The notes beneath the pieces were generated by a model. The model worked only from the letters and a program-made list of their open reading frames with translations, was not told the DNA's origin and ran no database searches. From positions 1-64,000 of the forward strand of contig CALLJK010000018.1 of NCBI GenBank assembly GCA_938091745.1: 64,000 nucleotides of DNA, in the 5' to 3' direction. This DNA comes from Candidatus Bipolaricaulota bacterium (GTDB lineage Bacteria; Bipolaricaulota; Bipolaricaulia; RBG-16-55-9; DRXL01). The position numbers and the translations under genes were made by a program. This document shows, in pieces, positions 11,100 to 15,437 of this stretch. Each line of letters begins with the position of its first letter. Position 1 is the stretch's first letter.

Positions 11100-11543
11100 T
11101 CATCTGAACTCCCACAGAGGGAGAACCCACTTCTCTGGAACGCTCTTGATCAACCGTTCGTCAGCCGTGATGAGCTTCGTCTTCAAGTGCTCAGCCAACG
11201 CTATATATGTCGCATCATAAGTGCTCGGACGGTGATAAGCGAACGCCAACTCCAAGATGCGTCCTGCAAGATGGCTTGTCTCTTCTCGAGCGATGCGCAG
11301 GCTCTGAAAGAGCCTCCACACCTCGAGAGCCTCTTGAGCAGTCAGTCTGGAGGTGCGCCCTCCTTTGCCTCGCACAGCAATATATAAGCCGTTGAGGATC
11401 TCATCGGCGAGCAAGGCAGGCGCGCAGAGCTGCACCCGCCCCTCCTGATAGCGATCAAGCAGGGCATCGGCTTGGCCTTGATAAGGCTCCTCAGGCAGCC
11501 ACGCGGCCAATATAGCGCTCGCGTCGATCACGAAGGTCTTCAT
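11100..11543 (-). CDS. vapC: PIN-domain toxin, VapC type
   Basis: 147 aa. Starts MKTFVIDASAILAAWLPEE with the first PIN aspartate, then a conserved Glu in LLADEILNGLY. TYDATYIALAEHLKTKLITADERL carries the remaining acidic residues of the Mg-dependent ribonuclease site. It overlaps the antitoxin gene by 4 nt (ATGA), the usual arrangement for VapBC. Confidence 0.9.
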   Translation of the reverse strand: MKTFVIDASAILAAWLPEEPYQGQADALLDRYQEGRVQLCAPALLADEILNGLYIAVRGKGGRTSRLTAQEALEVWRLFQSLRIAREETSHLAGRILELAFAYHRPSTYDATYIALAEHLKTKLITADERLIKSVPEKWVLPLWEFR

Positions 11544-11800
11544 GGGCGCTCCTCCAACAGCTTGCGAGATTCTTCATAGATCTCTTTAGCTTTGATCCCA
11601 GCAGTCTTCCAGCGTTCGCGCAATTCGCGCAGCCGCGCCACCGCCAGACGACGCTCTATCCGCTCATACTCAGCCTCTGCAATCAGTCGTGCTGCAGGGT
11701 GCCGATCCTTGGTGATAATGATTTGCTCCCCGGCTTCCACCTCACGCACAAGCTGCGTCAACTTGTTCTTCGCCTCAGCTATAGAGACGACTTTTGCCAT
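11540..11800 (-). CDS. Antitoxin, Phd/YefM-like, partner of VapC
   Basis: 86 aa from the ATG at 11800; a GTG three codons further upstream is an alternative. N-terminal MAKVVSIAEAKNKLTQLVREVEAG followed by IIITKDRHPAARLI is the Phd/YefM DNA-binding fold. The C-terminal half (ERIERRLAVARLRELRER) is the helical toxin-neutralising part. The start codon lies inside a 7-bp inverted repeat, consistent with autoregulation. Confidence 0.85.
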   Translation of the reverse strand: MAKVVSIAEAKNKLTQLVREVEAGEQIIITKDRHPAARLIAEAEYERIERRLAVARLRELRERWKTAGIKAKEIYEESRKLLEERP

Positions 11801-11816
11801 AGCTATCACCTATGGC
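11796..11816. promoter_or_regulatory. Putative VapBC operator
   Basis: Perfect inverted repeat GCCATAG (11796-11802) / CTATGGC (11810-11816) with a 7-bp centre. It overlaps the antitoxin start codon, just downstream of the -10 box. VapBC complexes typically bind such sites. Confidence 0.6.
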
Positions 11817-14772: not shown

Positions 14773-14848
14773 TGGTGGAGCCGAGCGGATTCGAACCGCC
14801 GACCTCCCGCTTGCAAAGCGGGCGCTCTCCCAGCTGAGCTACGGCCCC
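14773..14848 (-). tRNA. tRNA-Ala (anticodon TGC)
   Basis: Cloverleaf with acceptor stem GGGGCCG/CGGCTCC, D-arm GCTC..GAGC, anticodon loop with TGC, TTCGAAT T-loop, discriminator A and an encoded CCA (plus-strand TGG at 14773-14775). 76 nt. It is read after tRNA-Ile in the same direction. Confidence 0.95.
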
Positions 14849-14863
14849 GAAGGACAGTTTGAC

Positions 14864-14895
14864 AGTTCTAAGTTACCAGTTTCCAGTTCAAAGTT
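14864..14895. repeat. Inverted repeat, tRNA-Ala side of the S23-type element
   Basis: AGTTCTAAGTTaCCAGTT (14864 onward) continues with related A/T-rich words. It is nearly the reverse complement of 15287-15318: 11 identical bases, then further partial identity. In the minus-strand transcript the two ends would pair. Confidence 0.7.
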
Positions 14896-14909
14896 CAAGG
14901 GTGAGGGAA

Positions 14910-15278
14910 CTACTGCGCAGACTTTAGATATCGAACGAAGCCAGAGATTGCTTTGGAGGTCTCCTCGGCTTGTTGAGAAGCCCGATTAAATTCTTCTACA
15001 TCAATGTATCCTAAATCGAGAGCAATGTAGAGCAAGCTTCGCACCTCTGCACAGGAACCACGTGCAATATGGAGAAAGTTCACGAACTCTCGGTTGGAGC
15101 CACGTCCAAAGCCTTCAGCAACGTTGGACATAATAGAAACAGCAGCTCGTTGAATCTGGTTGCTCAAGCCTGAGTCTTTATGGAATGGGATTTTGTTTGT
15201 AAAACCGTAAATCATCTTGACAAGATCTCTTGCGAGTTGCCAAGCCTTGATCTCCTCAAATCTTTCAATCTTTGCCAC
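14910..15278 (-). CDS. Four-helix bundle protein (S23, 23S rRNA intervening-sequence type)
   Basis: 122 aa from the GTG at 15278; the longer open frame would run through tRNA-Ile and is rejected. KIERFEEIKAWQLARDLVKMIY, then LSNQIQRAAVSIMSNVAEGFGRGSNREF and SLLYIALDLGYI are hallmark phrases of the S23/four-helix-bundle family, first known from genes inside 23S rRNA intervening sequences. Here it lies between tRNA-Ile and tRNA-Ala, on the same strand, flanked by inverted repeats. No strong Shine-Dalgarno site. Role unknown; members are also related to the Avd accessory protein of diversity-generating retroelements, but no reverse transcriptase is nearby. Confidence 0.9.
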   Translation of the reverse strand: MAKIERFEEIKAWQLARDLVKMIYGFTNKIPFHKDSGLSNQIQRAAVSIMSNVAEGFGRGSNREFVNFLHIARGSCAEVRSLLYIALDLGYIDVEEFNRASQQAEETSKAISGFVRYLKSAQ

Positions 15279-15286
15279 AAATCTAA

Positions 15287-15318
15287 CTCTAAACTGTTTA
15301 ACTGGAAACTTAGAACTA
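15287..15318. repeat. Inverted repeat, tRNA-Ile side of the S23-type element
   Basis: On the minus strand reads AGTTCTAAGTTtCCAGTT then further A/T-rich sequence, matching the plus-strand repeat at 14864-14895. Together they bracket the S23-type gene and separate it cleanly from both tRNAs. Confidence 0.7.
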
Positions 15319-15325
15319 TCCCGTG

Positions 15326-15397
15326 TGGGTCTAGGAAGAATCGAACTTCCGACCTCGCGCTTATCAGGCGCGCGCTCTACCACTGAGCTATAGACCC
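15326..15397 (-). tRNA. tRNA-Ile (anticodon GAT)
   Basis: Acceptor stem GGGTCTA/TAGACCC, D-arm GCTC AGTGGTA GAGC, anticodon stem CGCGC/GCGCG with loop CTGATAA, T-arm GGAAG TTCGATT CTTCC, discriminator A, no encoded CCA. 72 nt. First gene of the tRNA transcript. Confidence 0.95.
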
Positions 15398-15408
15398 TAA
15401 CTACTTTT

Positions 15409-15437
15409 ATATTAACATCATCGGCCTTGACTGTCAA
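15409..15437 (-). promoter_or_regulatory. Promoter of the tRNA-Ile/S23/tRNA-Ala transcript
   Basis: TTGACA (15437-15432), 17 bp, TAATAT (15414-15409), 11 nt before the tRNA 5' end. Strong consensus, as expected for stable RNA. Confidence 0.8.

Follow-up and report, generated by a model that had tools for sequence, protein, structure and literature searches.

The tRNA-Ile/tRNA-Ala locus and its spacer

The window, meaning the whole 64,000-nt stretch analysed here, comes from contig C18 of a draft genome of 1.74 Mb (G000; relatives are named by handles of the same kind). Its minus strand carries, in this order, tRNA-Ile(GAT), a 476-nt spacer with an S23 gene, and tRNA-Ala(TGC), with the following features.

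15409 to 15437, minus strand: candidate sigma70-type promoter of tRNA-Ile, TTGACA-17 nt-TAATAT (read from sequence)
15325 to 15397, minus strand: tRNA-Ile(GAT) (ARAGORN and Rfam)
15285 to 15320, minus strand: predicted 5' strand of the terminal stem (fold of 15400-14770; duplex z -5.9)
15282 to 15317, minus strand: 5' arm, heptamers AGTTCTA AGTTTCC AGTTAAA (C) AGTTTAG AGTTAGA (sequence and arm comparison)
14910 to 15278, minus strand: S23 / 23S rRNA-intervening-sequence protein gene, 122 aa, GTG at 15278 to TAG at 14910 (PF05635, TIGR02436)
14870 to 14898, minus strand: candidate tRNA-Ala promoter within the 3' arm, TTGAAC-17 nt-TAACTT (position shared with relatives)
14864 to 14898, minus strand: 3' arm, heptamers TTGAACT TTGAACT GGAAACT GGTAACT TAGAACT (sequence; the reverse complement of the 5' arm type)
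14861 to 14895, minus strand: predicted 3' strand of the terminal stem (arm match, fold and duplex test)
14773 to 14848, minus strand: tRNA-Ala(TGC) (ARAGORN and Rfam)

The S23 gene between the two tRNA genes, first recognized in a sequence-only reading of this DNA, was confirmed by ARAGORN, Rfam, and the PF05635 and TIGR02436 profiles. The encoded protein matches PF05635 with an E-value of 7.2e-38 and 129.5 bits (curated cut-off 33.8), matches TIGR02436 above its cut-off (E 3.1e-36), and has 2GSC as its closest solved structure (E 1.8e-17). The gene is in the sense direction with respect to both tRNAs and is the sole gene within the element, which contains no transposase, and an Rfam search of the tRNA-Ile/tRNA-Ala spacer matched no intron family. 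G000 has no other S23 copy and no S23 match in its 23S rRNA, which holds a group I intron instead (RF00028, 69.9 bits; L140:1488-3368, equivalent to C18:72371-74238 and outside the window). This intron is also an insertion in a stable-RNA gene but differs in that it splices and rejoins its RNA; beside it lies an ORF of 218 aa that appears by eye to be homing endonuclease-like. Elsewhere in the window, two adjacent ORFs at 11100-11809 resemble, on inspection by eye, a VapBC-type pair of PIN-domain toxin and antitoxin.

The two arms of the spacer are tandem heptamer arrays, with AGTTNNN five times (and one extra base) on the 5' side, starting 7 nt past the annotated end of tRNA-Ile, and NNNAACT five times on the 3' side. 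Near-identical inverted repeats had been described as bordering S23, and they are indeed present: the 21-nt stretches 14861-14881 and 15300-15320 show 90% complementarity, 17 of 18 positions agree between the arms in AGTTCTAAGTTNCCAGTT, and none of 100 shuffled flanks matched the observed arm score. The computed energy of the spacer-end duplex is -57.5 kcal/mol, whereas dinucleotide shuffles give -32.5 +/- 4.2 (z -5.9). Folding of 15400-14770 produced the anticipated long terminal stem, with 14+6+12 bp between 15320-15285 and 14861-14895 and a z of -3.0 for the whole fold. The 3' CCA of tRNA-Ile is not encoded in the window, where the gene ends in CAC (15327-15322) and CCA would therefore have to be added post-transcriptionally; it is encoded in G001, G003, G005 and G006.

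Both tRNA genes have promoter-like sequences ahead of them. The candidate upstream of tRNA-Ile has a counterpart at the equivalent place in G006 (TTGACA-17-TAAGAT). An outward candidate promoter that would keep tRNA-Ala expressed is probably present in the 3' array as well. This sequence ends 21 nt ahead of tRNA-Ala and recurs, identically placed and spaced, in G003 (TTGAAC/TAACTT) and, as TTGACC/TAACTT, in G001 and G005; scored against shuffles, it is not significant in G000 (p 0.83), G001, G003 or G005. No tRNA-Ala promoter was found in the 3' arm of G006. The sequence-only reading had placed S23 and both tRNAs on one transcript, a view weakened by the candidate promoter of tRNA-Ala's own, which makes a single transcript uncertain. 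Because the promoter position is kept in relatives that lack S23, tRNA-Ala in this genus may not need the tRNA-Ile transcript, and because no such promoter was found in G006, a single transcript is likelier there.

Filled, decayed and S23-less sites in relatives

Three genomes of the same genus, G001, G003 and G005, have kept both neighbouring genes of the locus (an ALDH gene and the MAPRTLWKW ORF) at about 78-87% nucleotide identity. The 215-nt spacer of G003 contains both ends of the S23 gene around an internal deletion, with the arms present. The spacers of G005 (71 nt) and G001 (70 nt) are without S23 and without the 5' array. All three genomes retain the outer part of the 3' arm, which in G001 and G005 is seen as GGTAACTTAGAACTG and the -10-like TAACTT at an unchanged distance from tRNA-Ala. 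In other families of the order, 0-22 nt separate tRNA-Ile from tRNA-Ala. Insertion followed by decay is the simplest history for these sequences, with the 70-nt spacers apparently being scars that keep the outer 3' arm. Alternatively, the insertion may be confined to the line of G000 and G003; the species tree of the four genomes is weakly resolved, with 232, 200 and 146 sites for the three splits. G001 and G005 were considered as clean pre-insertion sites and rejected as such, with the outer 3' arm still there in scar-like form. The comparison with relatives that the sequence-only reading had proposed thus yielded S23-less and decayed syntenic sites, but no clean pre-insertion site within the genus. 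An outward promoter would explain why the element was tolerated and later decayed to a promoter-bearing scar.

S23 also occupies the tRNA-Ile/tRNA-Ala spacer of a genome from another genus of the same family, G006, where the neighbouring genes are different from those of G000. The two S23 proteins are about 50% identical, and the G006 arms (AGTGTTGCAGTGCTGC and its complement) are unrelated in sequence to those of G000 and pair with a z of -4.5 against shuffles. In the best protein tree, G006 S23 groups with a Hydrogenedentota copy (95/96). The best tree, the different arms and the different neighbours argue for insertions in G000 and G006 that may be independent; a clade of G000 and G006 S23 is not rejected by the AU test (p 0.26).

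A second stable-RNA site lies between tRNA-Ser(GGA) and a downstream RNA that Rfam identifies as the large bacterial SRP RNA. It is empty, with a spacer of 13-15 nt, in eight genomes (G019, G024, G036, G031, G048, G052, G054 and G056) and holds an intact S23 gene in five (G028, G042, G050, G062 and G063). G020 has an S23 gene with an internal TAG, G034 and G071 have S23 remnants, G044 has a probable one, and long spacers without a recognisable S23 are found in G022, G025 and G037. In filled spacers, the tRNA CCA is followed immediately by the insert, and the old short spacer, GGCCCGTGCAGG, is found at the right end, which fixes the insertion point to one or two bases; between CCA and GGCCCGTGCAGG, comparison of empty and filled sites revealed no target-site duplication. 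The S23 proteins of this site form one group (SH-aLRT 98), which the best tree keeps apart from the G000 and G006 proteins. A TTGNNN-16/17-TANACT sequence is located 7-9 nt ahead of the old spacer in 11 of the 12 long spacers; the SRP start of the twelfth (G063) was unrecognised, so the scan effectively covered 11. The promoter-like score exceeds that of shuffles (p < 0.05) in eight spacers, which are mutually related. Pairing of the ends is not significant for the GC-rich tRNA-Ser elements of genus g12 (G020, G028 and G042).

In the class-wide set of 100 genomes, S23 was located 48-96 nt past a tRNA in 10 cases, two of which are decayed copies, and always on the tRNA strand. These copies represent two to three insertion events. 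Among about 60 examinable named loci from other phyla, no S23 gene was within 600 nt of a tRNA. With relatives' sites that are empty, filled or decaying, S23 behaves as an inserted element that enters stable-RNA operons and not only 23S rRNA.

Comparison with 23S rRNA intervening sequences

Intervening sequences (IVSs) of 23S rRNA are located in helix 9, 25 or 45. The helix 45 IVS of Coxiella burnetii has a 28-bp terminal stem and tandem GACAGAT heptamers just before the start of S23p, and RNase III cuts it at the first heptamer repeat (PMC4990558). These heptamers and the RNase III site tie 23S IVSs to arm-flanked S23 loci. Like the Coxiella IVS, the window element has a sense S23 ORF in a stable-RNA transcript, a length in the range of about 430-480 nt, ends that pair over roughly 28-32 bp, tandem heptamers ahead of the ORF, ORF decay in relatives, and a sporadic distribution. 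Unlike the Coxiella IVS, it lies between tRNA genes, directly past a tRNA 3' end, and not in 23S rRNA, its cutting would separate two RNAs and not fragment one, and its 3' arm contains a candidate outward promoter. The terminal stem, the sense S23 ORF and the sporadic presence by which a 23S rRNA IVS is recognized are all found here and the 23S helix location is not; the element is of the S23/IVS type but newly located, sharing the design of a 23S IVS and not its position. No report of S23 elements in tRNA spacers was found in a literature search that had most subscription papers and preprints beyond its reach.

The proposal that an IVS-type element was inserted in a tRNA operon is well supported by the pairing of the ends, the arms of other S23 copies and the syntenic states. 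We consider it rather probable, with appreciable room for doubt, that the 476-nt spacer is such an S23 element, which entered a former tRNA-Ile/tRNA-Ala operon immediately 3' of tRNA-Ile. At the level of sequence, the anatomy, the arm pairing, the syntenic full, decayed and S23-less states and the recurrence after tRNA genes are established; RNase III cutting, promoter use, movement of the element and any role of the S23 protein are points that we infer. None of the three outcomes named beforehand as counting against such an element, namely ends that do not pair, S23 copies without repeats and the lack of any empty site, was found.

A working mechanism can be drawn from the layout of the locus and its likeness to 23S IVSs. 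The element would most likely be co-transcribed from the tRNA-Ile promoter. In read-through RNA, the arrays would form a terminal stem of roughly 32 bp that RNase III, the gene for which is present in the genome (E 1.9e-68), would cut as in 23S rRNA IVSs, judging from the anatomy and the Coxiella work. Three products are predicted: tRNA-Ile carrying a trailer, a fragment made up of the S23 mRNA/IVS, and tRNA-Ala whose leader would be left to RNase P. The tRNAs would then be completed by RNase P together with 3' processing and with no ligation, the cutting simply separating them, and tRNA-Ala would probably be transcribed additionally from the 3' arm. The sequence-only reading had the paired ends bringing the two tRNAs together; that part is not supported, as IVS excision occurs without rejoining and the tRNAs need no such step.

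Inverted arms, heptamer arrays and other explanations

Inverted arms are not peculiar to the window. With an inverted match score of at least 12 between the 150-nt flanks as the criterion, they surround S23 at 57 of 87 loci (66%) from many phyla and 3 of 93 control ORFs (3%), and direct and reversed matches reach the same score at 14% and 11% of the S23 loci. In a class-wide set of 70 S23 copies, which partly overlaps the set of 87, inverted matches account for 51%, against 13% and 1% in the comparison classes. The arrays are mostly of period 7 (also 8 or 9), and among loci with arms, AGT is favored upstream (46:3) and ACT downstream (44:5). Other S23 copies therefore have inverted repeats of the same design, but the same repeats do not recur: arm sequences vary between elements, even inside one genome, and one repeat sequence common to all S23 genes was rejected in favor of a common design. 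Orphan genes annotated as encoding a "four helix bundle protein" (PF05635/TIGR02436; structures 2GSC and 2RLD) belong to the same family and most have inverted arms of period 7 to 9; ordinary orphan copies lie between protein genes, and the window copy lies between tRNAs. In family f7 (L005, L007, L012, L019, L022, L169 and L175), the S23 gene and its inverted arms have as neighbours an upstream ORF ending ...QIALVGA.RK.TP, the stop codon of which is at the first heptamer, and an ORF starting YFPGCALKDQ (heterodisulfide reductase-like by eye). At L004, L008, L011, L017 and L171, from several genomes, S23 directly precedes an aminotransferase-like ORF (DLKRQYA.IKPEIDAA...), which the S23 frame enters in some cases.

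These arms might instead act at the DNA level, as terminal repeats of a foldback recognized by a mobilising enzyme from elsewhere or by S23, with RNA pairing as a by-product. We regard this as unlikely, although most S23 genes have inverted arms, many of them outside stable-RNA operons, the S23 tree spans phyla, and the boundary between empty and filled sites is exact. Neither a transposase nor a target-site duplication was found, arm sequence is specific to each element, and the common direction of the 10 tRNA-linked copies and their tRNAs suits a role at the RNA level. Foldbacks built from these heptamers but lacking S23 do exist in a few places, such as after tRNA-Val in G005, but an inverted partner is nearby for only about 3 of the 37 arrays of the genus, and S23-less foldback copies were rejected as a common class on that count. 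The S23-less hairpins of inverted AGTTNNN at L276 (G005:C100, after tRNA-Val(TAC)) and L264 (G002:C305) are possible deletion derivatives.

Each of the six genomes of the genus has AGTTNNN arrays, which are absent from G006, G007 and G008. As they are genus-wide and occur without S23, the window arms could partly be local repeats. The arrays would then be the tRNA-Ile terminator and the tRNA-Ala promoter, with S23 merely between them and complementarity resulting from opposed heptamers. The best support for this reading comes from 8 of 39 listed arrays that are 6-13 nt past a tRNA 3' end on the tRNA strand, several with terminator-like T-tract hairpins; opposite-direction arrays precede some tRNAs. 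We nevertheless judge it quite improbable, as G006 lacks AGTTNNN arrays and yet has S23 spacer arms of another sequence that pair, inverted arms flank S23 genes of many phyla, and the 5' array is missing in G001 and G005, where S23 is lost. Five arrays of G000 itself (C11:124086-124110, C11:172783-172807, C17:17750-17774, C32:39162-39186 and C18:72010-72034) are 6-13 nt past the ends of three tRNA-Leu, a tRNA-Val and a tRNA-Asn gene and share the strand of the tRNA; a T-tract hairpin follows at least one of them. Around the remaining AGTTNNN arrays of G000, blastx returned no significant trace of S23.

It is very improbable that S23 is a resident regulator, kept for binding the arrays (as RNA or DNA) and controlling tRNA-Ile/tRNA-Ala or SRP RNA maturation, for although S23 is repeatedly co-directional after tRNAs and its family has a relative in the Avd protein of diversity-generating retroelements (PMC10053308), the gene is decayed or lost in G003, G034, G071, G044 and G020 (stop) with the promoter-like 3' end persisting.

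To return to the inserted IVS-type element, its protein has the four-helix-bundle fold homologous to that of Avd (PDB 4DWL; PMC10053308), a relationship that renders an RNA intermediate conceivable, but no more. Among the ORFs neighbouring S23, no reverse transcriptase and no template or variable repeat was noted. The S23 protein tree crosses phyla. Tentatively, and with considerable doubt, orphan S23 genes across bacteria (and in at least one archaeal bin) could form a single mobile family whose boundaries are inverted heptamer arrays; 23S IVSs would be its best-known insertions and processed tRNA 3' ends one of its targets, perhaps reached via an RNA intermediate.

The origin and movement of 23S rRNA IVSs have been an open question since about 1990. 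As this S23 element is not in 23S rRNA and defined stable-RNA sites are seen empty, filled and decayed, insertion point, loss and consequence can be read directly. Its apparent exit promoter suggests how an essential tRNA operon can be split by an element and the element tolerated. Additionally, inverted heptamer arms connect IVSs with the many "four helix bundle protein" genes that had lacked an explanation, and provide a testable signature.
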